DNA from: Caldilineales bacterium | GTDB taxonomy: Bacteria; Chloroflexota; Anaerolineae; J102 | DNA length: 47,007 nt | NCBI GenBank assembly: GCA_019695115.1 | Contig: JAIBAP010000046.1 | Span: 1-47,007 of the forward strand | Reading direction: 5' to 3' | Shown here: positions 16,434 to 40,193 of the stretch, piece by piece | How positions within the stretch are numbered: position 1 is the stretch's first letter | How the letters are laid out: every line of letters begins with the position of its first letter | The notes under the pieces: generated by a model | What the model saw: the letters and a program-made list of their open reading frames with translations, nothing else | The model's database searches: none | What the model was told of the DNA's origin: nothing | Translations under genes and position numbers: made by a program

Positions 16434-16442
16434 TGCTATAAT
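16434..16442 (+). promoter_or_regulatory. extended -10 promoter of the Yip1/ABC operon, leaderless type
   Basis: TGCTATAAT is a perfect extended -10 element. Transcription would start about 7 nt later, at 16449, which is the A of the ATG start codon, so the mRNA is predicted to be leaderless. No clear -35 is seen, as expected for an extended -10. Confidence 0.7.
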
Positions 16443-16448
16443 GCGCCC

Positions 16449-17252: not shown

Positions 17253-17261
17253 ATCCCACCG

Positions 17262-17945
17262 ATGATCGCTATCCGTGGCCTGTGCAAGAGTTATCAGATG
17301 GGGCGCACCGAGGTGCGCGCCCTGGCCGGCGTCGATATCGATGTGCCGCAGGGGGCGTTCATGGCAGTGATGGGGCCTTCGGGGTCGGGCAAATCCACGC
17401 TCCTGAACCTGATCGGCGGGCTGGATCGGCCGACCGCGGGCAGCCTGAACGTGGGCGAGCACGAACTGGCGGCGCTGGATGAGAACGCGCTGGCGGCCTA
17501 TCGTCGCCGCACGGTGGGTTTCATTTTTCAATCCTTCAACCTGATCGGCACGATGACGGCGCAGCAGAACGTCGAATTTCCGATGCTGTTCGCCCAGGTC
17601 GAACGCAACGAGCGCCGGCGACGGGCGCGCTATCTGCTGGAGGCGGTGGGGTTGGGCCAGCGGCTGGAGCATCGACCGACCGAGCTTTCGGGCGGCGAGC
17701 AACAGCGCGTGGCCGTGGCCCGCGCCCTGGCCAATCTCCCGGCCATCCTCCTGGCCGATGAGCCGACCGGCAACCTGGATTCGCGCACGGGCGAGGAGAT
17801 CATGAGCCTGCTGCTGCGCGCCCGTGCGGAGGGTCAGTTGACCGTGCTGCTGGTGACGCACGACCCCGACGTCGCCGCCCATGCCGACCACATCGTACAC
17901 ATGAAAGATGGACGTATCATCGAGACGACGGACGCCCGTCGCTAA
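17262..17945 (+). CDS. ABC transporter ATP-binding protein, MacB/LolD type
   Basis: A 227-residue nucleotide-binding subunit that powers the FtsX-type permease encoded at 19620. Walker A is GPSGSGKST (about 38-46), the Q-loop FIFQSFNLI, the signature [14 protein letters not shown], Walker [14 protein letters not shown], and the H-loop VTHD. The PTGNLD and SFNLI phrases are typical of the MacB/LolD/FtsE branch, which moves lipoproteins, peptides or macrolides, or transmits force across the membrane, rather than classical import. It overlaps the next gene by 38 nt, so the operon is tightly packed. Confidence 0.95.
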
Positions 17946-20949: not shown

Positions 20950-21160
20950 TTGCACGGAACACGAAACACAGAACGCCTCGCACATGAGCGAACACGCTCC
21001 GCCATCCACGCAACACGGAACACGAAACACGAAACGCCTCGCACGTAAGCGCGCTCGCTCCGCCATCCACGCAACACGGAACACGAAACACGGAACACCT
21101 CGCACGTAAGCGCGCTCGCTCCGCCATCCACGCACCACGCACCACGGAACACGGAACACC
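20950..21160. repeat. 61-bp tandem repeat with embedded heptads upstream of rpiA
   Basis: Each unit has three or four heptads (CAACACG, GAACACG, AAACACG) followed by a GC-rich core containing CCTCGCACGTAAGCGCGCTC and CCGCCATCCACG. Two nearly identical units begin at 21011 and 21072 (61-bp period); a diverged unit precedes them, and a final run of heptads ends in C-runs at the rpiA ATG. No ribosome binding site precedes rpiA. Confidence 0.85.
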
Positions 21161-24765: not shown

Positions 24766-25215
24766 ATGTCCACTCCGATTTCTTCGCCTTCGCGTCCCTC
24801 TCAGTTGCCTGGCAACTACCCACACCCCCAGGTTCGGCTAGCCGTGAGATTCCTCCTTCTACCGGCCTCGAATGGCGACGCCGAAGGCAGCCGGTCTCAC
24901 TCCCTCTCCTTCGAGCATCTGTTGCTGCGCGTGGGCAGGCTCAGCCGCCGCCCGCGTCATGAAAAGGAGTGGTCGCAAGAGCTGGACTCCTACGACGTCA
25001 TCTTTCTCGAGATCAAGAACGACACCGATATTGCCTATTGTCATGAACTCAGGCGCCTCTCGCTGAAGCCGCTGTTTTTGTACGGCCGCAATATCCCGGT
25101 TACGACCTGGATTCACGGTCTGCAATCAGGCGCCGACGCTTATCTGGAGTTGCCGACCAGCGAGGAACTCCTGCATGCCAAACTACGGGCGGTGCTCAGG
25201 CGCACACAGTTGTAA
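24766..25215 (+). CDS. stand-alone degenerate (pseudo) response-regulator receiver
   Basis: A 149-residue protein whose residues about 24-147 follow the receiver fold: beta1 (LAVRFLLL), a helix, beta3 (SYDVIFLEIKN), alpha3, beta4 (LKPLFLYGR), GLQSGADAYLELP and a final helix ending LRAVLRRTQL. Key residues are altered: the acidic pair after beta1 is missing, the phospho-acceptor Asp is Glu82, and the usual Lys-Pro is Leu129-Pro130. It therefore probably does not use phosphorylation; Glu could mimic the active state. There is no output domain. It is transcribed from its own near-leaderless promoter, 217 bp upstream of the giant adhesin-like gene, and may regulate this locus through protein contacts. 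That role is inference. Confidence 0.75.
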   Translation: MSTPISSPSRPSQLPGNYPHPQVRLAVRFLLLPASNGDAEGSRSHSLSFEHLLLRVGRLSRRPRHEKEWSQELDSYDVIFLEIKNDTDIAYCHELRRLSLKPLFLYGRNIPVTTWIHGLQSGADAYLELPTSEELLHAKLRAVLRRTQL

Positions 25216-25432
25216 GCCGCTTCGTAACTTTTGGCAGCGGCGGGCGTCTCCATCAACGAAGTCAGCCAGTGGAAACCTGGATGGGGACAGGCGCCCACCA
25301 CGAACGAATCTCCCCCACAAATGTTCACCTTCTGCCTTCGCGGTCAAGGACTGCGCGCGTCCCTCCATATCCGCCATTCTTACCGCACCACGCACAATCA
25401 TCAATCCCAAATCACTGGAGGAAAGTGATCCC

Positions 25433-28400
25433 ATGAAACTTGCACCCTTTAGCGACACCCACCCCCTCAACAAGCCTTTACGCCTGTTGCTGGCGTTGGC
25501 GTTGGCGTTGTCTTCGTTGGCGTTGCCGGGGGCCTTTTTGCCCCGGGTCTTTGCCGGCGACAACGACAGCCCGCTGCAGATGCGCACCGAAGGCAGCTGT
25601 CAGGATGCCTCCGGCCTGGGCGTCCTGAGTTTTGGTCTGGGCATCGACGGCACCGCCCTTGGCGACCCAGACCCCAATGACCCGCTCAACCCCACCAACG
25701 GCACCTTCACCGTGGCGGGCATTCCCGTAGGCGCCACCATCCAGGAAGCCTGGCTGTATTGGAACGGCTCGGACCTGGGCAATGCGCCGGAGGACAACCC
25801 GCTGGCCTTCAACCCGGCGGTCAACGATGGCGACCCCACGGTGACCCTGAACAACGTCCAGGTTCCCTTCGTCCCGGCATCCAATCTCGTGCGCGTCGGC
25901 GGCCCCGCCTTCTGGGGCACATCCGATTTTTCGTATGCCTATCGCTCGAACGTGCTCGCCATCGTCACCGGCAATGGCGCCTATGTACTGAAGGGCATCG
26001 ACAACCTGGATAACTACATCAACGGCGCCGAGCTGGTGGTCGTCTATCGTGACCCGGCCCGGGATCCCTATTACTTCGGTCTGGCCGACGGCATGGACAT
26101 CGTCCAGGGTTCCAGCGGCCCCGCCTCTGGCCCTGGCACCAACGCCGTCATCTACCAGTTCGACCCGGCTGCCACCAGCCGCACCGCCAAAGTGACATTG
26201 TTCCTGGGCGGGGCCGGTTTTGCCAGCGGCGCCAACTCGCTGTGGTACGAGACCGGGAATAATGCCAATCTGCCGCCCGGCCCGCCGCCTTCCAGCAACC
26301 CCACCATCATCGGCCGCGCCACCGCCACCGAGGTGGCCAACCCCTTCACCGGCCTCAACAACCAGAACGCCAACGGTTACTGGGACAGCTACACCTTCAA
26401 TGTCACCGTCCCCGCCGGCGCCACCTGGTTGGCCGTCCAGCCCGATTCCAAGGATGGCGCCGACCCGCAGCGGCTGGAGTGGGTGGGTTCCAACATGGAG
26501 ATGCCGCTGGCCTGTCCTGAGTACACCCTGACCAAGACGCGCACGACCGCGGACTTCGTCCAAGCCGGACAGGCAGTGACCTTCGATATCGTGGTCACCA
26601 ACACCGGCAACACCGACATCATCACCGCCACCCTGCGCGACAACTACGACACCACCTACCTGACCTACGGCTTCGGCGGCAACTTCAGCACCCCCGCCTC
26701 CAACGACAACATCAACGATGGCCAGATCGACTGGGCAACCGGCCAGGGCATCGGCCCCATCCTCTTCGGCCAGGCGAAGACCGTTACTGTGCGTTTCACG
26801 GCCGTACAGAGCACCGAACCGATCGTCGGCCCGCCCGCCGACCGCACCATCAACACGGCTTCGACCTTGACCGTGGCTGACCAGAACGGCGAAGCCGCGC
26901 CCCCCACCAGCGACACCGACGACGTCGAGATCACCAACCCCAGCGTCACCGTCGTCAAAACCCTGCTCATCCCGGCGGATGGCTCGACGGCGGTGGGTGG
27001 GCAAGTGCAGTGGCGGATTCGGGTGACCAACAGCGGCGACACGACGCTGAACACCGTGCCCCTGGCCGACACCTACAACACCACCTATCTGAGCTACGGC
27101 TACAGCGGCAGCTTCAGCAGCCCGGCCAGCAACGACAACACCAACGATGGCACGCTGAACTGGAGCGACATCACCGGCGCTGGCAGCCTGGCCCCCGGCA
27201 ACTTCATCGATGTCACCGTCAACATGACGGCCGTCGCCAGCACCCAGGCCCTGGCCAACGACCAAACGATCAACACCGCCACCGTGTCGGGCGCAGTGGA
27301 CGAAAACGGCGACACCCCGCCCACCGCCTCGGACACCGAACCGGTCGAGATCGGCAACCCGGCCGTGACCGTGCTCAAGACCCTGCTCATCCCTGCCGAC
27401 GGCTCGACTGCGGTCAATGCCCAGGTGCAGTGGCGGCTGCGGGTGACGAACAGCGGCGACACGATCCTCACCACCGTCCCGCTGGCCGACACCTACGACA
27501 CCACCTATCTCACCTACGGTTACGCCGGCAGCTTCAGCAGCCCGGCCAGCAACGACAACACCGACGACGGCGCCTTGAACTGGACCGACATCACCGGCGC
27601 CGGCAGCCTGGCCCCCGGCAACTTCATCGATGTCACCGTCAACATGACGGCCAAAGCCAGCACGCAACTCCTGGCCAACGACCAGACCATCAACACCGCC
27701 ACCGTGACGGGCGCAGTCGATGAGAACAACGACACCGCGCCCACGGCCTCGGACACCGAGCCGGTCGAGATTGGCGGCCCCGGCGTGCGGGTGATCAAGA
27801 CGCTTGTCATCCCGGCCAGCGGCTCGGCCTCAGTAGGCGGGCAGGTGCAGTGGCGGCTGAATGTGACCAACATCGGCGACACCGCCCTGACCACCGTCCC
27901 CCTGGCCGACACCTACGACACCGCTTACCTGATCTATGGCTTCGGCGGCACTTTCAGCACGCCGGTCGCCAGCAATGACAACGTCGACGACGGCGCCCTG
28001 AACTGGACCGACATCACCGGCGCCGGCAGCCTGGCCCCTGGCAGTTCCATTGACATCTTCGTCAACATGACGGCCGAAGCCAGCACGCAAAGCCTGCCCA
28101 ACCAGCAGACGATCAACACCGCCACCGTGACCGGCGCCGTGGACGAAAACAACGACCCCGTCCCACCCTCGACCGATGACGAACCGGTGCGCATCATTTC
28201 TGGTGGCGCCATCGGCGACTATGTGTGGTACGACGCCAACGCCGACGGCATCCAGGATGTGACCGAAGACGGCATCGGCAACGTCACCGTCGATCTGTGG
28301 CTGGATGATGGCGACAACGTGCTCGACCCCGGCGACACCTTCATCGGCACCGAAACCACCGGCGCCGACGGCGGCTACATCTTCAAAGACCTGGGCGCCG

Positions 28401-31400
28401 GCACCTACATCGTCGATGTCACCGACACCAACGGCATCCTCTCTGGCCTGACCCACACCCTCGGCCTCGAAAGCCAGACCGATCCCTTCGTCGTCACCAT
28501 CGGCGTGGGTGAGTTCTACGAGGACGCCGACTTCGGCTATGTCCGCACCCCCACGGCCGGCAACGGCGTCATCGGCGACACGGTCTGGAATGACCAGAAC
28601 CAGAACGGCGTCCAGGATCCGGGCGAACCCGGTCTCCCTGGCGTCACCGTCACCCTCAAGACCCCCGGCCCCGATGGCATCCCCGGCAACGGCGATGATG
28701 TCACCGTCAGTTCCACCACCACCGACCCCAACGGCAACTACTTGTTCAACAATGTGCCGCCGGGAATCTACTATGTGGATGCCACCGCCGGTGTGCCTGC
28801 CGGCCTGACGCCCTCGCCGGCTGCGCCCGACCCGACCACCGTCTTCGTCCTGGCTGCGGGCGACCAGTATCTGGATGCCGACATCGGCTTCTACGATGCC
28901 GGCGTCCAGGATATCCTGGGCACCATCGGCAACCTGGTCTTCCGCGATCTCGGCAACGATGGCGTCTTCAACGTCGGCACCGATAGCCCGTTCGGCGGCG
29001 TCAGCGTCGACCTGATCCGCGACACGGACAACGACGGCGTCTGGGATGCCGGCGAACCGATTGTGGCCACCACGACCACGGCCACCACGCTCGGCCCCAA
29101 CAACAGCAACTACCTCTTCACCGGGCTGACGGCCGGCCGCTACCTGGTGGCCGTCTCCGATACGGCCAACGTCCTGGCCAGCTACAGCCCCACCGTCCTC
29201 GGCGTCGCCAACGTCGACAACAACAGCCAGGCCCAGCCCTATCCCGTCAACCTGGCTGCGGGCGCCAATGTCATCACCGCCGACTTCGGCTACGTTCTCA
29301 GCAGCCCGCCCGGCGATAACGGCGTCATCGGCAACCAGGTCTGGAACGATGTCGATGGCGACGGCATCTACAACCCGGCCAGCGGCGACACCGGCATCGA
29401 AGGCGTCACCATCGACCTGCTCGACAACGCCAACAACGTCCTGGCCACGGTCACAACCGGCCCCAGCGGTGACTACAGCTTCACCGGCTTGCCCGCCGGC
29501 ACCTACAAAGTGCGTGTGACCGACACCGCCAATGTGCTGGCCGGCTACCTGGTCACCACCCTGCCCGCCGACCAGGTTTCGGACAACACCAACAAGCTGC
29601 AAGCCTTTACGGTGGTGTTGGCGGCGGACGAAATTAAGCTGACCGCCGACTTCGGCTACATCCGGCCCGGCGCCATCGGCGATTTCGTCTGGTACGACGC
29701 CAACGCCGACGCCATCCAGGATGTAGGCGAACCCGGCATCCCCTTCGTCACCGTCGATCTGTACGACGCTGGCCCCAACGGCGTGGCGGGCGGCGGCGAT
29801 GATGTCCTGCTGCAATCGACCATGACCGACGCCGACGGCGGCTACATCTTCAAGGACCTGCTCCCCGGCACCTACTATGTCGATGTCACCGACGTCAACG
29901 GCAACCTGAGCGGCCTGACCCACACCATCGGCGCCCAGAGCCAGCCCGACCCCAGCAATCCCATCAGCCTGGGCGTGGGCGAAGTCTACAAGGATGCCGA
30001 CTTCGGCTACTACCAGCAGCCGACCATCCCCGGCAACGCCGTGGTGGGCGACCTGGTGTGGTACGACCAGAACCAGAACGGCATCCAGGACCCCGGCGAA
30101 CCGGGCATCCCCGGCGTAAGCGTGCAACTGATCGACGCCACCACCAATCTGCCCGTCGGCGCCCCGGTTGTCACCGACCAGAACGGCAACTACCTCTTCC
30201 CCAACGTGCCGCCCGGAACCTACTATGTCCAAGCCAGCGGCGCTCCCCTTACCAATCTCACCCCCTCGCCCAACGCCCCCAACCCGACCGCAACCTTCAC
30301 CGTTGGCCCCAATGAGCAGTATCTGGATGCCGACCTCGGCTTCTACGATGCGCCCGGCGGCACCAACGTCCTCGGCACGATCGGCAACCAGGTCTTCAAG
30401 GATGTCAACAAAGATGGCATCTACGGCGCCGGCGACGCGCCCTTCGTGGGCGTCAGCGTCGACCTCATCCACGACCTGGATAACGACAACGTCTGGGATG
30501 TCGGCGAACCGGTCATCGCCACCGACACCACCGACCAGAACGGCCAGTACTCGTTCACCGGCGTCCCTGCCGGCAACTACCTGGTGCACGTTAGCGACAC
30601 CAACGCCGTCCTCCTCGATTACGTCCAGACGGCCACGACCGGCCCCGCCAATGTCGATAACCGCAACCAGCTCGACCCCTACGACGTGACCCTGGCCGCC
30701 GGCGGCACCAACAACACCGCTGACTTCGGTTACTATGCCGCCAACCGCGAGGACATCGGCGTGCTCGGCAACCAGGTCTGGACCGAGAGCGACTACAACG
30801 GCGTCTACGACCCGGCCAGCGGCGACGTTGGTCAGGCAGGTGTGACCGTCGATCTCTACCTGAACGGCTCCTACTACGCCACCACCACCACCGGCGCCAG
30901 CGGCGACTACTCGTTCACCGGTCTGCCGTCGGGCGTGTACAGCGTCGAAGTGACAGACGTGCAGGGCGTGCTCAGCGGCTACGCCGTCACACTCTACCCG
31001 GTCAACCAGACCGCCGACAACAACAACAAGGTGCAGGCCTACGGCATCAACCTGCCGCAGGCGGGCATCAACCTCACCGGCGACTTCGGCTACATCTTGC
31101 CCGGCGCCATCGGCGACTACGTCTGGTACGACGCTAACGCCGACGCCATCCAGGATGTGACCGAGTCGGGTCTGGGCAACGTCACCGTCGATCTGTGGAA
31201 GGACAACAACAACAGTGGCACCATCGATGGCGGCGACACCCTCATCGGCACCAAGACGACCGGTCTCGACGGCGGCTATCTCTTCACCGACCTGCTGCCT
31301 GGCGCCTACATCGTCGATGTCACCGACACCAACGGCATCCTGGCCGGTCTCAGCCACACCACCGGGCTGCAAAGCCAGGTCGATCCCTACGCCCTCACGC

Positions 31401-34400
31401 TCGTTGCCGGCCAGTCCGCTCTGGACGCCGACTTCGGCTACGTGCGCATCCCCACCTCGGGCGGCGTCATCGGCGACACCGTGTGGATGGACAACAACCA
31501 GAACGGCGTCCAGGATCCGGGCGAACCCGGCATCCCCGGCGTCACCGTCACCCTCAAGACCCCCGGCCTCGATGGCATCCCCGGCAACGGCGATGATGTC
31601 ACCGTCAGCTCCACCACAACCAACCCCAATGGCAACTACCTCTTCAGCAATGTGCCGGCGGGAACCTACTATGTGGATGCGACCGCCGGTGTGCCTGCCG
31701 GTCTGACCTCTTCGCCGGCCGCGCCCGACCCGACCACCGTCTTCGTCCTGGCCGCGGGCGACCAGTATCTGGACGCCGACATCGGCTTCTTCGACGGCGG
31801 CACACCCAACACCGGCTCGATCGGCGGCACCGTCTGGAAGGATACGCCGACCACCGACGGCATCCTCGCTGGCGGCGAGCCTCGCTTCCCCGGCGTCACC
31901 GTCGATCTGCTCAGCGGCGGCAATGTCGTCGCCACGGCCGTCACCGACCAGAACGGCGACTTCCTCTTCAGCGGCCTGCAGCCCGGCACCTACCAGGTGC
32001 AGGTGACCGACACGGCCAACGTGCTGGCGAACTACGACCCGACGACGATCATCGGCGGTGTGGCCGACGGCACCAACAAGGCCCAGCCCTACAGCGTCAC
32101 CATCGCCGCCGGCGGCTCTAACACCACCGCCGACTTCGGTTACATCCCCAGCGACAACACCGGCCACGCCGGCGTGATCGGCAACCAGGTCTTCAATGAC
32201 GTGGACGGCGATGGCATCTTCAACCCGGCCAACGGCGACACCGGCATCGAAGGCGTGACGGTCGAGCTGCTGGACGGCGCCAACAACGTCCTCGCCACCA
32301 CCACCACCGGCCCCACCGGCCTCTACATCTTCAACGGGCTGTCGGCGGGCGTCTATCAGGTGCGCGTGACCGACACCGCCAACGTCCTGGCCGGCTACCT
32401 GGTCACCACCCTCGGCCCCACCCCTGGCGCCGACAACAACAACCAGGCCCAGGCCTACACCATCGTCCTGCCGGTCGATGGCATCAACATGACCGCCGAC
32501 TTCGGTTACATCCGGCCCGGCGCCATCGGCGACTTCGTCTGGTACGACGCCGACGCCGATGCCATCCAGGATGTGGGCGAACCCGGCATCCCCTTCGTCA
32601 CTGTCGATCTCTACAGCGTCGGCCCGAACGGCGTCAAGGGCGGCGGCGATGATGTCCTGTTGCAGTCGACCATGACCGACGCCGACGGCGGCTACATCTT
32701 CAAGGACCTGCTCCCCGGCACCTACTATGTCGACGTCACCGACGTCAACGGCAACCTGAGCGGTTTGACGCACACTGTGGGCGCCCAGAGCCAGCCCGAT
32801 AGCAGCAACCCCATCGTCCTCAGCGTGGGCGAGGTGGATAAGACCGCCGACTTCGGCTACTACCAGCAGCCCACCATCCCCGGCAACGCCGTCGTCGGCG
32901 ACCTGGTGTGGTACGACCAGAACCAGAACGGCATCCAGGACCCCGGCGAACTGGGCATCCCCGGTGTGACCGTGCAACTGCGTCGCACCAGCGATAACGC
33001 CCTTATCGCCACCACCACAACCGACCAGAACGGCAACTACCTCTTCCCCAACGTCCCGCCCGAAACGTACTATGTGGACGTGACCGCCGGCGTGCCGGCA
33101 GGGCTGTCGTTCTCGGCTGGCGCGCCCGATCCTACGGCCAGCTTCACCGTCGTCGCCAACCAGCAATACCTGAACGCCGACATCGGCTTCTACGATGCGC
33201 CCGGCGGCACCAACGTCCTCGGCACGATCGGCAACCAGGTCTTCGAGGATGTCGACAAAGATGGCATCTACGCCGGCGGCGACACCCCGTTGGTGGGCGT
33301 CAGCGTCGACCTCATCCGCGACCTGGACAACGACAACGTCTGGGATGTCAACGAACCGGTCATCGCCACCGACACCACCGACCAGAACGGCCAGTACTCG
33401 TTCACCGGCGTCCCTGCCGGCAACTACCTGGTGCACGTCAGCGACACCAACGCCGTCCTCCTCGACTACGTCCAGACGGCCACGACCGGCCCCGCCAATG
33501 TGGACAACCGCAACCAGCTCGACCCCTACGACGTGACCCTGGCCGCCGGCGCCACCAACAACACCGCTGACTTCGGTTTCTACCAGGCCAACCGCGAGGA
33601 CATCGGCGTGCTTGGCAACCAGGTCTGGACTGAGGTTGACTACAACGGCGTCTACGACCCGGCCAGCAAGGACATCGGCCAGGCAGGCGTAACCGTCGAC
33701 CTGTATCGCAACGGTGTGCTGTACGCCACTACAACGACGGGCGCCAGCGGCGACTACTCGTTCACCGGGCTGCCTTCGGGCGTGTACGCGGTGGATGTGA
33801 CCGATGTCCAAAATGTCCTGGCGGGTTACATCGACACCCTGTTCCCGGTCAATCAGACCGCCGACAACAACAACAAGATCCAGAACTACGGCATCAACCT
33901 GCCGCAGGCGGGCGTGAATCTGACCGGCGACTTCGGCTACATCAAGCCCGTCACGATTGGCGACTTCGTCTTCGTCGATCCCAACGCCAACAAGGTGCAG
34001 GATCCGTCGGAAACCACCGGCCTGCCGAACGTGCCCATCACCGCCACCAACCTCAGCACCGGCCAGGTCTTCACCACCCTGACCAGCCCCACCGGCTTCT
34101 ATCAGTTCGTCAACCTGCCTCCGGGCACCTACTCGGTCGCAGCGCCGGCGTCGTTGCCGCTCTATCTGCGCACTACCGACTCGCCGATCGTACGCACCCT
34201 GCCCGCCGGCACGGTTGACAACAACTTCGACTTCGGTTACATCAACCCCACCGCCGTCACCATCGCCAGCCTCTACTCCAGCACCAGCAAGCAAGGCGTC
34301 ACCATCCACTGGAGCACGATCTTCGAGGAAGGCAGCGACCGCTTCTACGTCTATCGCAGTCTCAGCGAGAACGGCCAGCGCACCCTGCTCACCCCGAACG

Positions 34401-34597
34401 GCATCGCTTCTCAGGGCAACCCTGAAGGCGCAAGCTACCAGTACCTGGATGCCACCGCCACCCTGGGCAAGACCTACTTCTACTGGGTCGAGGTGCGGCC
34501 GCAGGGCGACCTGCACGGCCCGGTGGTCGTCTCCTACCTCACACCCGACGCCGGCGCCCTCAAGATCTTCCTGCCCAACGTCGTGCGTCGCCACTAA
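25433..34597 (+). CDS. giant secreted adhesin-like protein: GD-type N-domain, 4 DUF11-like and 17 SdrD_B-like domains
   Basis: A 3054-residue surface protein. Layout: signal peptide (1-41, ending VFA); N-terminal beta-rich domain beginning GDNDSPLQ (about 42-360; EAWLYWNG, VGGPAFW, NGAELVVVYRDP, WDSYTFNVTVPAGATWL); four DUF11-like domains of about 140 residues (about 361-921); 17 SdrD_B-like domains (925 to about 2936), each opening IG(D/N)xVWxD with a Ca-binding-type DxNxDGxxD loop and closing ADFGY; a fibronectin-III-like domain (about 2938-3040; HWSTIFEEGSDRFYVYRS); and a basic tail LKIFLPNVVRRH. There is no LPxTG anchor. GGAGGA lies 10 nt before ATG 25433. The preceding 217 bp hold a leader with a GTCTCCATC/GATGGGGAC stem. 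Probably a long calcium-stiffened surface fibre; the role in adhesion is inferred. Confidence 0.92.
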   Translation: MKLAPFSDTHPLNKPLRLLLALALALSSLALPGAFLPRVFAGDNDSPLQMRTEGSCQDASGLGVLSFGLGIDGTALGDPDPNDPLNPTNGTFTVAGIPVGATIQEAWLYWNGSDLGNAPEDNPLAFNPAVNDGDPTVTLNNVQVPFVPASNLVRVGGPAFWGTSDFSYAYRSNVLAIVTGNGAYVLKGIDNLDNYINGAELVVVYRDPARDPYYFGLADGMDIVQGSSGPASGPGTNAVIYQFDPAATSRTAKVTLFLGGAGFASGANSLWYETGNNANLPPGPPPSSNPTIIGRATATEVANPFTGLNNQNANGYWDSYTFNVTVPAGATWLAVQPDSKDGADPQRLEWVGSNMEMPLACPEYTLTKTRTTADFVQAGQAVTFDIVVTNTGNTDIITATLRDNYDTTYLTYGFGGNFSTPASNDNINDGQIDWATGQGIGPILFGQAKTVTVRFTAVQSTEPIVGPPADRTINTASTLTVADQNGEAAPPTSDTDDVEITNPSVTVVKTLLIPADGSTAVGGQVQWRIRVTNSGDTTLNTVPLADTYNTTYLSYGYSGSFSSPASNDNTNDGTLNWSDITGAGSLAPGNFIDVTVNMTAVASTQALANDQTINTATVSGAVDENGDTPPTASDTEPVEIGNPAVTVLKTLLIPADGSTAVNAQVQWRLRVTNSGDTILTTVPLADTYDTTYLTYGYAGSFSSPASNDNTDDGALNWTDITGAGSLAPGNFIDVTVNMTAKASTQLLANDQTINTATVTGAVDENNDTAPTASDTEPVEIGGPGVRVIKTLVIPASGSASVGGQVQWRLNVTNIGDTALTTVPLADTYDTAYLIYGFGGTFSTPVASNDNVDDGALNWTDITGAGSLAPGSSIDIFVNMTAEASTQSLPNQQTINTATVTGAVDENNDPVPPSTDDEPVRIISGGAIGDYVWYDANADGIQDVTEDGIGNVTVDLWLDDGDNVLDPGDTFIGTETTGADGGYIFKDLGAGTYIVDVTDTNGILSGLTHTLGLESQTDPFVVTIGVGEFYEDADFGYVRTPTAGNGVIGDTVWNDQNQNGVQDPGEPGLPGVTVTLKTPGPDGIPGNGDDVTVSSTTTDPNGNYLFNNVPPGIYYVDATAGVPAGLTPSPAAPDPTTVFVLAAGDQYLDADIGFYDAGVQDILGTIGNLVFRDLGNDGVFNVGTDSPFGGVSVDLIRDTDNDGVWDAGEPIVATTTTATTLGPNNSNYLFTGLTAGRYLVAVSDTANVLASYSPTVLGVANVDNNSQAQPYPVNLAAGANVITADFGYVLSSPPGDNGVIGNQVWNDVDGDGIYNPASGDTGIEGVTIDLLDNANNVLATVTTGPSGDYSFTGLPAGTYKVRVTDTANVLAGYLVTTLPADQVSDNTNKLQAFTVVLAADEIKLTADFGYIRPGAIGDFVWYDANADAIQDVGEPGIPFVTVDLYDAGPNGVAGGGDDVLLQSTMTDADGGYIFKDLLPGTYYVDVTDVNGNLSGLTHTIGAQSQPDPSNPISLGVGEVYKDADFGYYQQPTIPGNAVVGDLVWYDQNQNGIQDPGEPGIPGVSVQLIDATTNLPVGAPVVTDQNGNYLFPNVPPGTYYVQASGAPLTNLTPSPNAPNPTATFTVGPNEQYLDADLGFYDAPGGTNVLGTIGNQVFKDVNKDGIYGAGDAPFVGVSVDLIHDLDNDNVWDVGEPVIATDTTDQNGQYSFTGVPAGNYLVHVSDTNAVLLDYVQTATTGPANVDNRNQLDPYDVTLAAGGTNNTADFGYYAANREDIGVLGNQVWTESDYNGVYDPASGDVGQAGVTVDLYLNGSYYATTTTGASGDYSFTGLPSGVYSVEVTDVQGVLSGYAVTLYPVNQTADNNNKVQAYGINLPQAGINLTGDFGYILPGAIGDYVWYDANADAIQDVTESGLGNVTVDLWKDNNNSGTIDGGDTLIGTKTTGLDGGYLFTDLLPGAYIVDVTDTNGILAGLSHTTGLQSQVDPYALTLVAGQSALDADFGYVRIPTSGGVIGDTVWMDNNQNGVQDPGEPGIPGVTVTLKTPGLDGIPGNGDDVTVSSTTTNPNGNYLFSNVPAGTYYVDATAGVPAGLTSSPAAPDPTTVFVLAAGDQYLDADIGFFDGGTPNTGSIGGTVWKDTPTTDGILAGGEPRFPGVTVDLLSGGNVVATAVTDQNGDFLFSGLQPGTYQVQVTDTANVLANYDPTTIIGGVADGTNKAQPYSVTIAAGGSNTTADFGYIPSDNTGHAGVIGNQVFNDVDGDGIFNPANGDTGIEGVTVELLDGANNVLATTTTGPTGLYIFNGLSAGVYQVRVTDTANVLAGYLVTTLGPTPGADNNNQAQAYTIVLPVDGINMTADFGYIRPGAIGDFVWYDADADAIQDVGEPGIPFVTVDLYSVGPNGVKGGGDDVLLQSTMTDADGGYIFKDLLPGTYYVDVTDVNGNLSGLTHTVGAQSQPDSSNPIVLSVGEVDKTADFGYYQQPTIPGNAVVGDLVWYDQNQNGIQDPGELGIPGVTVQLRRTSDNALIATTTTDQNGNYLFPNVPPETYYVDVTAGVPAGLSFSAGAPDPTASFTVVANQQYLNADIGFYDAPGGTNVLGTIGNQVFEDVDKDGIYAGGDTPLVGVSVDLIRDLDNDNVWDVNEPVIATDTTDQNGQYSFTGVPAGNYLVHVSDTNAVLLDYVQTATTGPANVDNRNQLDPYDVTLAAGATNNTADFGFYQANREDIGVLGNQVWTEVDYNGVYDPASKDIGQAGVTVDLYRNGVLYATTTTGASGDYSFTGLPSGVYAVDVTDVQNVLAGYIDTLFPVNQTADNNNKIQNYGINLPQAGVNLTGDFGYIKPVTIGDFVFVDPNANKVQDPSETTGLPNVPITATNLSTGQVFTTLTSPTGFYQFVNLPPGTYSVAAPASLPLYLRTTDSPIVRTLPAGTVDNNFDFGYINPTAVTIASLYSSTSKQGVTIHWSTIFEEGSDRFYVYRSLSENGQRTLLTPNGIASQGNPEGASYQYLDATATLGKTYFYWVEVRPQGDLHGPVVVSYLTPDAGALKIFLPNVVRRH
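26516..28204 (+). repeat. four tandem DUF11-like repeats, 420-bp period
   Basis: Within the giant gene, units begin near 26516 and at 26936, 27356 and 27776. The last three starts are exactly 420 bp (140 codons) apart. Shared phrases are VVKTLLIPADGSTAV, PLADTYDTTYL, SFSSPASNDN, NWTDITGAGSLAPG and QTINTATV. Units two and three share long identical DNA stretches. Confidence 0.9.
28205..33949 (+). repeat. four tandem copies of a four-domain SdrD_B cassette
   Basis: Sixteen SdrD_B domains fall into four cassettes at 28205-29668, 29669-31102, 31103-32518 and 32519-33949 (1464, 1434, 1416 and 1431 bp). Each has the order A (GAIGD(Y/F)VWYD), B (V(I/V)GD(T/L)VW...NQNG(V/I)QDPGE), C (GTIGN-type, DLIRD) and D (G(V/I)(I/L)GNQV). 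Cassettes 1 and 3 resemble each other, as do 2 and 4: for example, 81 bp are identical at 30511-30591 and 33358-33438. Confidence 0.92.
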
Positions 34598-34610
34598 CAA
34601 CCCCAACCAA

Positions 34611-34643
34611 CGCCCCCAAGGGTTGCATAAGCCCTTGGGGGCG
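34611..34643 (+). terminator. hairpin after the giant gene
   Basis: A perfect 12-bp stem (CGCCCCCAAGGG / CCCTTGGGGGCG) with a 9-nt loop starts 14 nt past the stop codon. No T-run follows, so termination may be Rho-aided or the hairpin may protect the 3' end. Confidence 0.65.
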
Positions 34644-34743
34644 CCGCCTTGACAACACACCGTGTGCGACCAGTCTGCCAAGATTGGCCGCACAACTGGC
34701 CTGTCGGTTCGCCACCGACCACATACCCCAACGGATCCCCCCC

Positions 34744-35814
34744 GTGTCAACTTCTGCCACTAGCACTGCCCTGCCCCACCACCGGCGCCGAAAGGCGGTG
34801 GTCATTCTCGTCCTCCTCCTGGCGCTGCCCACGCTATTGCTCGGCAGCGCCCAGGCCGGAGACGCCGACCGTAGCCTGCAAGTCCGCACCTTGGGCGCCT
34901 GCAACGAAACCGCCGCCCGCGGCGTGGTGATGGCCGCCTTGGGAACTGACCAAGTCAGTGGCGGTACGCTCAATGTGTCCGGCATCCCAACCGGCGCCAC
35001 TGTCGTCGAAGCCTGGTTATATTGGAACGGCGACGACGACGGCAACAATGTCGAAGACGACCCGGCCCTTTTCAACCCAACACTCCATGATGGCGACCCG
35101 ACCATCACGATCGCTGGCATCCAGGCGCCTAACCCGCAGCGCGTGGGCGGCCCGGCCAACTGGGTCGGCGTCCGCAATGTCTATGGCTATGCCTACCGTT
35201 CGGATGTCTCCGGCATTGTCACTGGCAATGGCAGCTATGTGGTCGATGGCATGGACAACTTCAGCGGCGAGCAAGGCTATAACAACGGCATCGAACTGGT
35301 GGCCGTCTACCAACGGCCCAATACAGCGCCCACCTTTGTTGGCCTGGGCGAAGGTCTCGACCTGATCTACGGCAGCAACGGGCCAAACGTCGGGCCGGGC
35401 AGCATCGCCCCCCTCTTCCGCTTCCGGTCGGGGCTGGACAAACGCCAGGCACAGGTGACGGTCTTCCTGGGCGGCGTCGAGCCGGGCGGCCAGACATCGC
35501 TCTGGTATCAGACCGGAATCAACCTGCCCCCCTTCCCCCAAACCTTGCGCATCGCCGGCAACCCCGAAGCGATCGAAGTCAAGAATCCTTTCGACGGCCA
35601 CCACAACCAGAACGACAACGGCTTCTGGGATAGCTACACCGCCGCCGTCACGGTGCCGGCCGGCGCCACCTGGCTGGCGGTGCAGGTCGAATCCAAGAAC
35701 GCGCAGTCGCCACAGACGCCCGCCGTCATCGATTGGGTCGGCGCCGTCGTGCAGATGCCGCTCTCGTGCACCCTCCAGGTCTATCTGCCGCACCTGCTGC
35801 GCAGCCATCATTGA
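34744..35814 (+). CDS. secreted single-domain member of the GD-type family with YLP tail
   Basis: A 356-residue secreted protein that is the minimal form of the family: a signal peptide (about 1-38, ending GSAQA), one N-domain of the GD type (GDADRSLQVRTLGAC; EAWLYWNGDDDGNN; VGGPANWVG; GYAYRSDVSGIVTGNG; WDSYTAAVTVPAGATWLAVQ) and the tail LQVYLPHLLRSHH directly after it. It has no Thr/Pro linker and no SdrD_B modules. The domain is closest to the N-terminus of the giant protein just upstream. I chose GTG 34744 because it gives a normal signal peptide; an in-frame TTG at 34684 is the alternative. No clear ribosome binding site is visible. A TTGACA at 34649 lacks a good -10. Function unknown; probably exposed at the cell surface. 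Confidence 0.8.
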   Translation: MSTSATSTALPHHRRRKAVVILVLLLALPTLLLGSAQAGDADRSLQVRTLGACNETAARGVVMAALGTDQVSGGTLNVSGIPTGATVVEAWLYWNGDDDGNNVEDDPALFNPTLHDGDPTITIAGIQAPNPQRVGGPANWVGVRNVYGYAYRSDVSGIVTGNGSYVVDGMDNFSGEQGYNNGIELVAVYQRPNTAPTFVGLGEGLDLIYGSNGPNVGPGSIAPLFRFRSGLDKRQAQVTVFLGGVEPGGQTSLWYQTGINLPPFPQTLRIAGNPEAIEVKNPFDGHHNQNDNGFWDSYTAAVTVPAGATWLAVQVESKNAQSPQTPAVIDWVGAVVQMPLSCTLQVYLPHLLRSHH

Positions 35815-35815
35815 A

Positions 35816-35859
35816 ACGCCCGGCGTGAAGCATGACACACCATGCCGCACGCCGGGCGT
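35816..35859 (+). terminator. long hairpin between the 34744 and 35877 genes
   Basis: A 12-bp outer stem (ACGCCCGGCGTG / CACGCCGGGCGT) and a 5-bp inner stem (GCATG / CATGC) form an interrupted hairpin that begins 1 nt after the stop codon. No T-run follows. Confidence 0.55.
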
Positions 35860-35876
35860 ATCCCCCCTATCCGACC

Positions 35877-38800
35877 ATGTTTCGAACCCGTCTCTTTCCC
35901 CTGGCGCTGGCCCTGATCACGCTTCTGGTCGGGCTACAACCGGCTTTCGGCGCCAACGCCGCCGCCCTTCCGCCAGCGGCGCCAAAAGTCGTGCCAACGA
36001 TCTCCTACAAGATCATCACCACGGGCGCCGGCCTGTATCAGGTGACGCATACCAACCTGACCGGAGCCGGATTCGATCCGAGCGGCATCGACACCGACAC
36101 CTTCCAGCTTTTCAACGAGGGCGAGGAGGTCGCATTCTTTTTGTACGATGGCGGGGATCACAGCTTCGATCCCGGCGACTACTTCCTGTTCTACGCCGAA
36201 GCCAAACTGACGCGCTATACCAACACCAGTGTCTACTGGTTCACGGCCAACCAGGCCAGCCGCCTGCAGCCAACCAGTCGGGATGGCACACCGGGCGCGG
36301 CGCCGCTGGCCCCCAATTTCTGGCGCACCCTCCATTTCGAGCAGAACAAGGTCTACAAGAGCGCCTTGCCCCTCAGCGGTGAGGCCGACCGCTGGTACTG
36401 GATCTACTTCAAAGCCTGCCCGACCGGCGACCGCACCTGCAACGATACCGACGGCAAGAAAAACTCGCGCAGCCTGACCGCCAACCTGCCTGCCGTCAGC
36501 AGCTCGCCGCACACGGCCACCCTCTCGCCGGTGTTGCGCGGGCAGTCGAATGATTTCGCCAACCCCGACCATCATTTCCTCACCTTCGTCAATGGCACAC
36601 AGGTGGGCGACACCACTTTCGAAGGGGCGATCTCCTATACGGGCAATCTGAGCGTCAATAGCGCCCTGCTGGTATCGGGCAACAACACCATCCGCTTCGA
36701 CATCCCCGCCGACATCAGCGGCGCCAGCAACGACGGCTACATCAACTTCTTCGACATCACCTATCTCAGCGATTTCGCTGCCGATGCCAACCGCCTCGTC
36801 TTCGACGGCGCCTCAGGCGCCTGGCGATACCAGGTCGGTAACTTTACCAATGCCAACATCCTGGCGTTCGACATCACCAACCCCAAACAGCCGGTGATGA
36901 TCACCGGGTTGGCCGTGAGTGGCGGCGGGCCGTTCAGCGCCGCCTTCGAGTCCACCAGCGTCCTCCAGGCCGCCGGCGCCAGCGCCAACAACAGCTACTA
37001 CCTAGTGGCCAACCCCGCCTGGCAGACGCCCACCATCATCGTCGATGCCATCTCCGACCTGCAGTCGTATGCCAACGGCGCCGACTACATCATCATCACC
37101 CATGCCAATTTCATGGCCCAGGCGCAACAACTGGCTGCGTTCCGGGCCGCGGGCAACGGCTTCCGCACCGCCGTCGTCGATGTCCAGGATATCTATGATG
37201 AATTCAACGGCGGTCTGATGTCGGCGGAGGCCATCCGCGACTTCATATTCTACGCCTCGCACTACTGGCAGCCGCCGCGACCGCAGTATGTCGTCCTCTT
37301 TGGCGACGGCCACTATGACTTCTTGAACTCGCTAGGCTCGAACGAACCCATCTACATGCCGCCCTATCTGTTAGGCGTCGATCCCTTCCAGGGCGAGACG
37401 GCGGCGGACAACCGTTTCGTCGATGTTTTCGGCGATGAACAGTACGACAGCGATGGCGACGACACCAACACCGCCCGCAACATCGCCATCACCAACGGCA
37501 TCATGAATCTGGCCGTCGATTTCGGCTTCCATCCCATCGTCTTGGCGCAGTCAGAAGGGACGACAACCACCGCCGCCGAGCAGTCTGGCGACGGGCGTCC
37601 GGCAGCAGCGACGGCGCAGTTGCAGCCGAATCTAGTCAAGGCCTTTGGTGACACAGTCTGGTGGGACGAGGATCGCGACGGCGTCTTCGATGCTGAAGAA
37701 CGCGGCGCGCCGGGCGTCACCGTCAACCTGCTGCAGGGCGGCGCCGTCTATCTTTCGCAAACCACCGACGCCAATGGCGGCTATTCGTTCGAGGATATTC
37801 CCAGCAACGACTACCAGCTAGAATTCGTGTTGCCGGCGGGCTGGTCGTTCACTGCCCGCAATGTCGGCGGCCCCGATTGCGAGATCGCCCACAATGACCC
37901 CGCCATCTGCGACCGCTACGATTCGGACCCTGATCTGAACACCGGTCTGACCGACATCCTGACCTATGTCTATCCTCAGCAGGCGCAAGATAACTGGGAC
38001 GCTGGCCTGGTGCGGCCTGGCACCATTGGCAACCTGGTGTGGCTGGATAGCGACGGCGACGGACTCCAGGATGCGGGCGAAGCCGGCATTGCCGGTGTGC
38101 TGATCGAACTGCTGCAAAACAATGTAGTCATCGACACTGCTTCAACGGATGCCGACGGCTACTACTTCTTCTACGACCTGCCCGATGGCGTCTATGATGT
38201 GCGCGTGGCCGGGTCGAACTTCGGCGGCGGCCCCCTGACCGGGCTTTTCCGCAGCGACTGGGACCAGGGCTTCGACCTGATGCCCGACCTCAGCTTGGGG
38301 CGCTTCCCGGTCAACACCGTCGCCGAGGCCCAGGAGATGGTGAACCGCACCCTGGCCTACCAACTCAACGCCCCGCCGGGCGACTGGAACCAGCACATCG
38401 TCTTCGTCTCCGACAACCCCGACGGTGCTGGCGATTTCTACGCTCACTCGAACGAGGTGGCCGACAACATCTGGCCCTACCCCAGCGGCGTCGAGAAGGT
38501 CTACTACCAGCAGACCCACGCCACCAGCACCGCGGCCAAGGCGGCAATCAAGGCCGGCATCGACGCCGGGGCCTTGTTCGTCACCTACAACGGTCACTCC
38601 AGCAAACGCACCTGGGGCGACCAGCTTTGGGATACGGTCGATGTCGATACCCTGAACAACACCACCTTCCCCATCTTCCTGCCCATGACCTGTCTCGAAG
38701 GCCAGTATATCAACCCTGGCTTCGTCAGCATGGGCGAGAAGTCCGTCCGCACCATTGGCCGCGGCGCCGTCGCCACCTTCTCGCCCACGGGTCTGGGCGT

Positions 38801-40022
38801 GGCCACCGGCCACCAATTCCTCTACGACCAGTTCTTCGAGTCGCTGGTCTACGACGGCGAGACCCAGATCGGCCCCCTGACCGTGAACAGCAAACGCTCG
38901 CTGTTCGAGAGCCACAGCCTGTTCAAGGACCTGCTGGACACCTACGTGCTCTTCGGCGACCCGGCCCTGGTCGTCAACACCCCCCGCCCCGACGTAGCCA
39001 TCACCAAGACCGTGGAACCGTCGGGTACGGTGGCGCCGGGCGACCCCATCACCTACACCCTGACCTATACCAACGTCGGCCAGCTCGACGCCCCCGATGT
39101 CGTCATCACCGACATCCTCCCCAGCCAACTCCAGAACCCCAGCTTCAGCAGCAATCCCCCGTTGACAGCAGACCCTGGATCCCCCTACATCTGGCAGGTC
39201 GGGCTGCTGACGCCAGGCGCCGGCGGTACGATCACCATCCACGCCACCGTCGATCCGAACACTCCCGCCGGCGGCCAGATCGTCAACACCGCTCGCATCG
39301 ACACCAGCGGCGATGACGCCAACCTCAACAACAACGAAGCGACCGTAACCACGCCGGTGGCCGCATCGATCACGCTCGGCGGCAAGACCTGGTATGATGT
39401 CAACGGCAACGGCCTCCGTGAAGGCAGCGAGACCCTGCCCGTCGCCAATGTCCCCATCTCGGTGACACGTCTCAGCACCGGCCAGGTCTTCACCACCCAA
39501 ACGAATCCGAACGGCGACTGGCAGATCACCGGCCTGCCGCCCGGAACCTACCAGATCGGCAGCGCCCTGCCGCCCTTCCTGGCCCGCACGACCCCCTCAA
39601 CGCTTGCTGCCACCGTTGCTGGCGGCGGCTCGGCAACCAACCTTGACTTCGGCTTCATCTCCCCCACCGCCGTCGATCTTGTCGCCTTCACGGCCCGGCT
39701 GGAACCGCAAGGAGCGGAGATTGCCTGGCAGACCAGGTCGGAACAGGGCGTGGTTGGGTTCTATCTCTGGCGCAGCGCCAACGCCGAGGCGCAGGGCGAA
39801 CGCATCAGCGACCTGATCCCGGCCGGCGGCGAAGCCGAAGGCGCAGCTTATCGCTTTACCGATAGCCTGGTGCACGACGCCCACTGGTACTACCGCTTGG
39901 AGGCAGTGCCTGCCTCTGGCGCCAGCCAGTTCTTTGGCCCGGTGGAGCTTGCACCCGGTGATGGCGCTGCTGGTTCGCAGAAGGTGTTCTTTGGCCTGGT
40001 GTTGCGAAGGGCCAGACCCTGA
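35877..40022 (+). CDS. gingipain-type (C25) cysteine peptidase with an SdrD_B insertion and C-terminal surface modules
   Basis: A 1381-residue secreted peptidase. After a signal peptide (1 to about 25, AFG|AN) and a beta-rich pro/N-domain (to about 400), the C25 fold begins with YIIITHANF (about 405), FRTAVVDVQDIYDEF, AIRDFIFYA and VVLFGDGHYDF. It resumes with MPDLSLGRFPVNTVAEAQEM (802 on) and the catalytic dyad His907 (TYNGHSSKRTWGD) and Cys939 (LPMTCLEG), 32 residues apart, as in gingipains (33). In between (about 522-800) lie two SdrD_B-equivalents. Then follow a DUF11-like domain (about 1039-1150), one SdrD_B-like domain, a fibronectin-III-like domain like that of the giant protein, and the tail KVFFGLVLRRARP. 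ATG 35877 gives a proper signal peptide. Probably processes surface proteins; substrate unknown. Confidence 0.88.
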   Translation: MFRTRLFPLALALITLLVGLQPAFGANAAALPPAAPKVVPTISYKIITTGAGLYQVTHTNLTGAGFDPSGIDTDTFQLFNEGEEVAFFLYDGGDHSFDPGDYFLFYAEAKLTRYTNTSVYWFTANQASRLQPTSRDGTPGAAPLAPNFWRTLHFEQNKVYKSALPLSGEADRWYWIYFKACPTGDRTCNDTDGKKNSRSLTANLPAVSSSPHTATLSPVLRGQSNDFANPDHHFLTFVNGTQVGDTTFEGAISYTGNLSVNSALLVSGNNTIRFDIPADISGASNDGYINFFDITYLSDFAADANRLVFDGASGAWRYQVGNFTNANILAFDITNPKQPVMITGLAVSGGGPFSAAFESTSVLQAAGASANNSYYLVANPAWQTPTIIVDAISDLQSYANGADYIIITHANFMAQAQQLAAFRAAGNGFRTAVVDVQDIYDEFNGGLMSAEAIRDFIFYASHYWQPPRPQYVVLFGDGHYDFLNSLGSNEPIYMPPYLLGVDPFQGETAADNRFVDVFGDEQYDSDGDDTNTARNIAITNGIMNLAVDFGFHPIVLAQSEGTTTTAAEQSGDGRPAAATAQLQPNLVKAFGDTVWWDEDRDGVFDAEERGAPGVTVNLLQGGAVYLSQTTDANGGYSFEDIPSNDYQLEFVLPAGWSFTARNVGGPDCEIAHNDPAICDRYDSDPDLNTGLTDILTYVYPQQAQDNWDAGLVRPGTIGNLVWLDSDGDGLQDAGEAGIAGVLIELLQNNVVIDTASTDADGYYFFYDLPDGVYDVRVAGSNFGGGPLTGLFRSDWDQGFDLMPDLSLGRFPVNTVAEAQEMVNRTLAYQLNAPPGDWNQHIVFVSDNPDGAGDFYAHSNEVADNIWPYPSGVEKVYYQQTHATSTAAKAAIKAGIDAGALFVTYNGHSSKRTWGDQLWDTVDVDTLNNTTFPIFLPMTCLEGQYINPGFVSMGEKSVRTIGRGAVATFSPTGLGVATGHQFLYDQFFESLVYDGETQIGPLTVNSKRSLFESHSLFKDLLDTYVLFGDPALVVNTPRPDVAITKTVEPSGTVAPGDPITYTLTYTNVGQLDAPDVVITDILPSQLQNPSFSSNPPLTADPGSPYIWQVGLLTPGAGGTITIHATVDPNTPAGGQIVNTARIDTSGDDANLNNNEATVTTPVAASITLGGKTWYDVNGNGLREGSETLPVANVPISVTRLSTGQVFTTQTNPNGDWQITGLPPGTYQIGSALPPFLARTTPSTLAATVAGGGSATNLDFGFISPTAVDLVAFTARLEPQGAEIAWQTRSEQGVVGFYLWRSANAEAQGERISDLIPAGGEAEGAAYRFTDSLVHDAHWYYRLEAVPASGASQFFGPVELAPGDGAAGSQKVFFGLVLRRARP

Positions 40023-40103
40023 AAAGGTCTCGAAATCTTCTGGGTCTTGATCCCCATTTGCCAAAAGACCATAACTAAAGTAGCTTTCCGCCGTCAAGAG
40101 ATA

Positions 40104-40133
40104 TTGACCATCAGGTTTCGCATAAGCTATAGG
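40104..40133 (+). promoter_or_regulatory. sigma-70-type promoter for the 40194 gene
   Basis: TTGACC (40104-40109), 18-nt spacer, TATAGG (40128-40133). The start would be near 40140, giving a leader of about 54 nt with GAGGAG 8 nt before the ATG. Confidence 0.55.
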
Positions 40134-40193
40134 TGCGCGAAACCGCAACGGCCCTCGTCGTTTGCTGCGCGCCCTTCCTTGAGGAGAAGGACC

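Follow-up and report, generated by a model that had tools for sequence, protein, structure and literature searches.

Our analysis supports the conclusion that the SdrD_B stalk of a giant surface protein from this uncultured Caldilineales bacterium evolved in four-domain steps of ~475 residues and not domain by domain. The window, by which we mean the complete 47,007-nucleotide contig from a 135-contig draft assembly, encodes a protein of ~3054 aa that we consider probably to be a fibrillar-adhesin-like surface stalk, whose length evolves in whole-cassette steps of that size. In this model the protein would be a secreted fibre composed of an N-terminal head, four DUF11 domains, sixteen calcium-type SdrD_B domains of the CnaB fold and a C-terminal retention module. 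The number of cassettes would shift through tandem duplication or loss of one or two whole cassettes at once, presumably by unequal homologous recombination, and patches would be swapped between cassette copies at a later stage. If a single SdrD B domain measures roughly 4 nm, each cassette may contribute ~16 nm of rod, and the 16-domain array would place the head ~65 nm farther out.

Layout of the giant protein

The gene occupies positions 25433–34597 of the forward strand, on which all features described here lie, and is preceded by a GGAGG at 25417–25421. Translation from the ATG at 25433 begins with a hydrophobic, signal-peptide-like stretch, MKLAPFSDTHPLNKPLRLLLALALALSSLALPGAFLPRVFAG; the program-called start of the open reading frame at 25175 gives no signal peptide. 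The N-terminal head domain of 316 aa (25562–26509), the putative tip, is followed by four DUF11/DUF7507 Ig-like domains (26513–28201), the last three of which are near-copies with a 420-bp period. Sixteen SdrD_B and four DUF11 domains together make a long protein with tandem stalk domains. Pfam SdrD_B (PF17210) matched the protein 17 times (E 2e-275, 895 bits, cut-off 29.7), and the NCBIfam SdrD model scored 557 bits, below its cut-off of 2500.

The array consists of cassette 1 at 28211–29674 (A1 28211–28570, B1 28571–28924, C1 28925–29326, D1 29327–29674), cassette 2 at 29675–31108 (A2 29675–30043, B2 30044–30379, C2 30380–30763, D2 30764–31108), cassette 3 at 31109–32524 (A3 31109–31468, B3 31469–31819, the divergent C3 31820–32176, D3 32177–32524) and cassette 4 at 32525–33955 (A4 32525–32893, B4 32894–33226, C4 33227–33610, D4 33611–33955). 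The domain starts thus bear out the first-pass annotation, which had described sixteen SdrD_B domains as four successive A-B-C-D cassettes measuring 1464, 1434, 1416 and 1431 bp; these lengths were exact, but the array starts at 28211, 6 bp downstream of the 28205 given there. The same annotation had regarded a 17th SdrD_B domain (33956–34240) as capping the array. We found instead that this 'cap' is a distinct SdrD_B subtype belonging, together with an FN3-like segment and a C-terminal tail (34241–34594, ending KIFLPNVVRRH), to a conserved module with an xLPxxxR tail that is common to the giant protein and a neighbouring C25 peptidase, and that may serve in surface retention. Neither LPXTG nor another known anchor was found at the C-terminus of the giant protein, LKIFLPNVVRRH, nor was a Ser-Asp repeat region found in its translation.

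Predicted folds of stalk and head

An AF2 model of cassette 2 (pLDDT 87, pTM 0.83) predicts a CnaB-type fold, superposing on the B domains of SdrD with Z 17–17.6 and an rmsd of 1.9 over 116 residues, and the best sequence match to SdrD had an E of 3e-26. EF-hand-like calcium loops are canonical in the A and B domains, but those of several C and D domains are degenerate. In SdrD, tandem B domains joined by short linkers make up a rigid rod (PMC13174682), and by analogy the stalk would be rod-shaped and stiffened by calcium. Isopeptide cross-links have been reported in some SdrD_B domains (PMC12617251); no lysine is seen in the first strand of the domains that make up the array, and we did not assume such cross-links there.

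For the head, AF2 predicted an all-beta, double jelly-roll-like fold (pLDDT 75, pTM 0.81), and orthologues with 55–73% identity occur in Caldilineales and related MAGs. Fold searches with Foldseek and VIA-align brought up all-beta matches of no more than middling quality (Z up to 6.4) and no recognised adhesin fold, while a PDB sequence search using the head alignment gave nothing beyond a chance-level match. In the giant protein the head had no Pfam match and no MSCRAMM sequence match; a head paralogue matched DUF3344 weakly. The head may have an adhesin-type role.

Periodicity and domain classes of the array

Comparison of the DNA with itself gave main offsets of 2847, 2850 and 2898, corresponding to an eight-domain period, as the first-pass annotation had anticipated, and further offsets of 420/423, arising from the DUF11 block, and then of 1416/1434/1467. 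At the protein level, mean domain identity at lags 1 to 12 was 40, 36, 41, 55, 40, 37, 39, 72, 40, 34, 42 and 55%, that is, with maxima at lags 4 (55), 8 (72) and 12 (55) and a flat course elsewhere. Every multi-cassette array had an identity peak at lag 4, and two other SdrD_B-rich proteins, of 25 and 11 domains, showed neither a lag-4 nor a lag-8 peak.

Identity among the array domains ranges from 26 to 92% in protein, and cassettes 1 and 3 pair with each other (A1/A3 70, B1/B3 86, D1/D3 74%), as do cassettes 2 and 4 (A2/A4 92, B2/B4 69, C2/C4 91, D2/D4 83%). This pairing, proposed earlier, held for the cassettes but not for C3, the sole divergent domain, which is 47% identical to C1 and 51% to D1 and falls on the D side in one tree. 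In DNA, partner cassettes are 77% and 85% identical and non-partners 68–70%. An identical run between C2 and C4 had been put at 81 bp; self-alignment extends it to 87 bp (30505–30591 in C2, 33352–33438 in C4), which makes it the longest exact repeat in the whole gene. It lies within a ~93–98% identical tract of ~400 bp whose flanks are 62–79% identical, and codon-shuffled C2/C4 alignments reached an identical run of 87 bp in 0.05% of cases.

The expectation that a tree of the 17 domains would group them by class was borne out in part: class B was well supported and class D fairly so (82/95), but C was weak and A was split by an unsupported branch. Class labels required 3 changes on this tree, the fewest possible, against 9.4 in shuffles (0/200 as low). 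The outcome named earlier as a refutation, a grouping of neighbours, was not obtained.

The cassette in related proteins

Class HMMs trained on the window alone were then applied to other proteins, and they recovered the A-B-C-D order in 23 of them from three Anaerolineae families, relatives whose collection used a complete cassette as query and was thus biased towards ABCD matches. Junction counts in these proteins were A>B 39, B>C 38, C>D 39, D>A 17 and D>cap 6. The complete arrays among the relatives comprise one cassette (n=10), two (n=7) or three (n=3), and the window has four; none of the complete arrays is fractional, all being whole-cassette multiples, in a comparison of one genome per species in which nearly all relatives are draft assemblies. 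In one relative (G002) the array leaves the end of its contig after 5 domains. Thus, species differ by whole cassettes, in agreement with the earlier view that a multi-domain cassette is the unit of growth. Since the DUF11 block has grown by single domains, this rule is limited to the SdrD_B stalk.

A 68-domain tree without the window recovered A (99/91), B (100/87) and D (100/98), with C weaker (71/50). Linkers also follow the cassette: those between cassettes (D>A) measure 5 residues in 18/20 cases, and those within a cassette have medians of 10 (A>B), 9 (B>C) and 10 (C>D) residues. No additional cassettes were found in 400 genomes drawn phylum-wide.

History of the duplication

The cassette tree agrees with the earlier proposal of a duplicated eight-domain block, in that the c1+c2 pair was doubled in the last event. 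Such a pair occurs in G001, G005 (twice) and G010; in the window, c3 joins the c1 types and c4 joins c2. AU tests rejected sister pairings of window c1+c2 (p 2.7e-55) and of c3+c4 (p 5.3e-55), while c2+c4 were supported as sisters (100/99) and c1+c3 were not rejected (p 0.09), so that the doubling may have come before or after the split from G002; the first cassette of G002 groups with window c1 rather than c3 (99/97). A c1-c2 cassette pair was the ancestral array of the family, and the window holds it in doubled form, c1-c2-c1'-c2'.

Judged from synonymous divergence, with dS between cassette partners mostly 0.3–0.7, the eight-domain duplication is old. Divergence is patchy: dS is only 0.10 for C2/C4 and 0.27 for B1/B3, and at the domain level C1+C3 as sisters was rejected (p 4e-4) and B1+B3 was supported (95/95). 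Single domains were exchanged or converted between copies after the duplication.

Alternative explanations

The protein might be a building block of the filament's outer proteinaceous sheath or of an S-layer rather than an adhesin stalk, a possibility that we take seriously but think rather unlikely. A Caldilineae member is reported to have a multilayered envelope with a protein-decorated outer layer, and outer-membrane markers to be absent from the phylum (PMC13319060); moreover, several paralogues with the same head are adjacent and the head contains no known adhesive domain. Against this, a head, stalk and anchor with variable stalk length is the plan of fibrillar adhesins (PMC9210967), whereas constant length is what one would expect of a lattice protein.

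It is unlikely, in our estimate, that the stalk works as a periscope-type switch, in which recombination of near-identical cassettes alters its length within a population. Whole-cassette differences between species fit such a switch, and the C2/C4 tract (0.93–0.98 identical over ~400 bp) could seed a crossover of exactly 2.85 kb; however, the repeats of periscope proteins are highly identical (PMC9704523), and cassette divergence in the window implies long persistence of the present copies. Because the doubling is old, fast length switching is unsupported, and the earlier suggestion that recombination could change fibre length applies to evolution between species.

We consider it very improbable that single-domain duplications built the array and that selection on position-specific interfaces set the four-class pattern later. 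The placement of C3 with D in one tree and the split of A would agree with this, as would junction-dependent linker lengths, which suggest that interfaces may be under selection; but the lag-4 peak is present in every multi-cassette array, classes A, B and D each form a single clade across families, complete arrays hold whole cassettes only, and the pairing extends to synonymous sites. Finally, that the regular array arose by a tandem duplication in recent times or through misassembly of short reads is scarcely credible, for although the assembly is a draft, the contig ends fall within low-complexity repeats and the 87-bp stretch is identical, partner dS is too high, that longest exact repeat is shorter than common short reads, independent genomes carry the cassette in 1–3 copies and the G002 first cassette sides with window c1, notwithstanding the p of 0.09 for c1+c3.

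Comparison with known systems

The favoured reading, a fibrillar-adhesin-like stalk lengthened by whole cassettes, has partial counterparts. Staphylococcus aureus SdrD shares the domain family (PF17210), the fold and the EF-hand-like loop (A and B classes), but it has five B domains where the window protein has 16+1 in four-domain cassettes; and whereas the N2-N3 adhesin domains of staphylococcal Sdr proteins are accompanied by SD repeats and LPXTG, the window protein has an apparently different head and neither SD repeats nor LPXTG. Periscope proteins (SasG, Aap, Rib, Sgo0707) likewise are tandem-beta rods in which repeat number sets the reach of the head, the repeat unit of SasG/Aap being the two-domain E-G5 (PMC9704523); unlike their highly identical repeats, a cassette here holds four different domains. 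In the super-repeats of the nebulin type, with a seven-domain unit, block duplication is likewise seen as lag peaks (PMC1553488). Nebulin, however, is a eukaryotic, intracellular muscle protein, whereas ours is a bacterial surface stalk without introns and with a four-domain unit, and the A-B-C-D cassette, unlike that of nebulin, occurs in proteins with differing heads and tails. GhlA of Litorilinea aerophila (Caldilineae) is similarly a giant bead-on-string, Ig-like surface fibre; its grappling-hook-like filament has 49 DUF11 rather than SdrD_B domains, several chains per hook and no signal peptide, and the sections cited here describe no cassette order (PMC13319060). Our literature search found no paper linking SdrD_B with Chloroflexi, and no match describes a four-domain SdrD_B cassette.

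Growth of bacterial stalks is usually described as the addition of one domain or one E-G5-like pair each time; in these proteins four diverged domains keep their order across families, and the number of blocks varies. We tentatively suggest a bacterial counterpart of higher-order repeats, in which the cassette is a heritable unit, carried under varied heads and tails in 1–4 copies in register with a constant 5-residue boundary linker, and is maybe also a mechanical unit with a fixed pattern of turn and flex. If true, the latter would account for the missing fractional arrays; a mechanical unit larger than one domain, and the survival of whole units only, are now testable. The classes A, B, C, D and cap also provide a vocabulary for annotating a large group of Anaerolineae surface proteins.

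Neighbouring genes

Downstream of the giant gene, a gene at 34684–35814 contains a second copy of the head (34867–35763, 54% identical) and ends in VYLPHLLRSHH. It is followed by the C25 (gingipain/PorU-family) peptidase-like protein (35832–40022), which carries SdrD_B and DUF11 domains besides the shared C-terminal module, and by an open reading frame at 40047–44615 with a head at 40347–41189 and a single A-B-C-D cassette at 41211–42671. Paralogues sharing the head domain thus stand side by side.

Organization of the giant surface protein

The contig analysed (G000:C46, 47,007 bp) is the entire window and one among 135 contigs of a draft genome whose near relatives are MAGs of Caldilineales and other Anaerolineae/Chloroflexota. 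Its giant gene most likely runs from ATG 25433 to 34597, a start favoured by GGAGG at 25417-25421 upstream and a signal-peptide-like stretch downstream. In the product, a head of 316 residues (25562-26509) is followed by four DUF11-type domains (26513-28201), 17 SdrD_B domains (28211-34240) and an FN3-like C-terminal segment ending in IFLPNVVRRH. The first 16 SdrD_B domains had been read in the first-pass annotation as four A-B-C-D cassettes of 1464, 1434, 1416 and 1431 bp, lengths that our domain starts matched exactly with positions shifted by 6 bp. Self-comparison of the DNA gave main offsets of 2847, 2850 and 2898, and mean domain identity was 55% at lag 4, 72% at lag 8 and 55% at lag 12 versus 34-42% at all others; neither a lag-4 nor a lag-8 peak was found in two control proteins with 25 and 11 SdrD_B domains (L054 and L026). 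The reported 81-bp identity between cassettes 2 and 4 was present in both copies but is 87 bp long (30505-30591 and 33352-33438); it exceeds the expectation from the pair's own identity, being reached in 0.05% of codon shuffles. The third C domain is divergent, with 51% identity to D1 and 47% to C1.

The DUF11 block grew by single domains, unlike the SdrD_B cassettes: it has a period of 420 bp, and its last three copies are 70-87% identical. By eye, every DUF11 repeat holds a Lys-Asp-Asn set, consistent with an isopeptide bond. On the minus strand, an open frame of 2306 aa (27830-34750) lies antisense to the entire array and is most likely a side effect of the repetitive, GC-rich coding sequence.

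Cassettes in relatives

With one profile per domain class (A, B, C, D, cap), all built from the window sequence alone, we typed every SdrD_B domain in the relatives' loci and found the A-B-C-D order in 23 further proteins, which belong to three Anaerolineae families (f1, f31 and f38). Among confident transitions between classes, A>B and C>D were each seen 39 times, B>C 38 times, D>A 17 times and D>cap six times; other transitions were few. Among proteins with complete arrays, ten have a single cassette, seven have two and three have three, against four in the window; one array running past its contig end (L042) has at least 3.5. No fractional array occurred among complete arrays found with the full cassette as query, a search biased toward ABCD hits; their absence nevertheless carries information, because any partial copy in tandem with a full one would have been noticed. 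A phylum-wide draw of 400 genomes yielded no additional cassette. In a tree of 68 domains from two other families, containing no window sequence, the A, B and D domains formed clades (99/91, 100/87 and 100/98, respectively), and C was weakly recovered (71/50). The cassette is real, old and general to one Anaerolineae group. A single cassette also occurs at 41211-42671, in a nearby gene of the window (ORF 40047-44615). In genome G010 (L019:8734-15168), a two-cassette array hits a stop within its last D domain, followed by an overlapping frame (14970-18404), reflecting frameshift, sequencing error or decay.

Growth by block duplication of nebulin, by seven-domain blocks in eukaryotes (PMC1553488), and the two-domain units of SasG/Aap (PMC9704523) are already described; of a four-domain SdrD_B cassette multiplied in register, its order kept, we found no description in the open-licence literature searched.

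Order and age of the duplications

In a tree of 40 cassettes, the first cassettes of genomes G001, G010 and G005 (twice) clustered with window cassettes 1 and 3 and the first of G002, and their second cassettes with window cassettes 2 and 4. This clustering by type across genomes indicates that the family's ancestral array was a c1-c2 pair, doubled in the window, in keeping with the eight-domain block duplication proposed earlier. Approximately unbiased (AU) tests rejected neighbour pairings (p about 1e-55) and a single clade of all four window cassettes (p 6.5e-5); the doubling may have preceded or followed the split from G002 (p 0.09). Cassettes 1 and 2 of G203 are sisters (100/100), indicating single-cassette duplication in other families, so the unit per event is one or two cassettes. 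The multi-domain cassette thus holds as growth unit, order and whole counts being kept in relatives, with that qualification on the size of each step.

Synonymous divergence (dS) between cassette partners is 0.27-0.66, except for C2/C4 (0.10). Identity between cassettes 2 and 4 is 0.62-0.74 in B, 0.93-0.98 in C and 0.75-0.79 in D. A C1+C3 sister grouping was rejected (p 4e-4), C3 clustering with the first-cassette C of G010, whereas B1 and B3 are sisters (95/95). This unevenness and conflict show that patches were exchanged or converted between copies atop the block duplications. Length change by recombination, taken as recent switching, does not fit: periscope-type coding repeats are highly identical (PMC9704523), whereas the window's partners have diverged.

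Linkers and predicted structure

Counting residues from the last domain motif (DFGY-like) to the next domain's first (IGD-like), we found linkers of 5 residues in 18 of 20 D>A and all six D>cap junctions, as against about 10 (A>B), 9 (B>C) and 10 (C>D) within cassettes; junctions between cassettes are short, mostly with a proline, and those within roughly twice as long. As short B-B linkers make SdrD a rigid rod (PMC13174682), the D-A joint may by analogy be the stiff one. AF2 modelled cassette 2 at pLDDT 87 and pTM 0.83 (alignment of 11 rows, window plus named-locus cassettes). Among solved structures, B domains of SdrD matched it best, led by 8vdk (Z 17.6 and rmsd 1.9 over 116 residues) with 10ps and 4jdz not far behind, and a profile search hit SdrD at E 3e-26. 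Every A and B domain, like the cap, has a clear EF-hand-like loop (DxNxDGxxD); in several C and D domains the loop is degenerate. For the head, the model is all-beta (pLDDT 75), and fold comparison found no clear relative.

A recurrent C-terminal module

The 17th domain, first taken as capping the array, is a separate subtype (cap HMM 201 bits vs 47 for the next best) that recurs in a C-terminal module of proteins with or without cassettes. In more than 20 proteins it directly precedes an FN3-like segment of approximately 100-110 residues, which leads into a tail (for example IFLPNVVRRH, VFFGLVLRRARP or IFIPLVVR); the window's own genome has six full copies, and the C25 peptidase-like protein (35832-40022) bears it too. 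It is best read as a putative C-terminal retention or processing module common to several proteins, and looks like an unnamed Anaerolineae surface-retention or processing signal. With an [FYI][LIVF][PG]xxxR tail, the module lies at 33956-34594 and 39375-40019 and in loci L014, L015, L017, L022, L026 and L049; its bearers are secreted and otherwise dissimilar.

Gene neighbourhood

The order array/stalk protein, second head protein, C25 peptidase-like protein is the same in the window and three relatives' loci (L014, L017, L022), and L020 retains head protein and C25. The C25 (gingipain/PorU-family) protein, with SdrD_B and DUF11, is consistently linked to head-domain genes (35832-40022; L014:118-4239; L017:5752-9885; L020:5154-9272; L022:2888-6964). 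Its PorU-like N-terminus is curious in this phylum, which is not known for type IX secretion. Directly upstream of the giant gene, a 149-aa ORF (24766-25215) has an end resembling a response-regulator receiver domain (GADAYLELPTSEELLHAKLRAVLRR). An intergenic 61-bp tandem repeat spans 20953-21157 (3.4 copies, CACGGAACACGAAACACGG...), and heptamer arrays (TCAGTAA x12, ACAATCA x8) lie by the contig start (127-269). Neighbouring surface genes contain long Thr-Pro-rich linker repeats with 6/18/24/54-bp periods (42959-43850 and 46499-47007); the contig ends within one, likely the cause of the assembly break.
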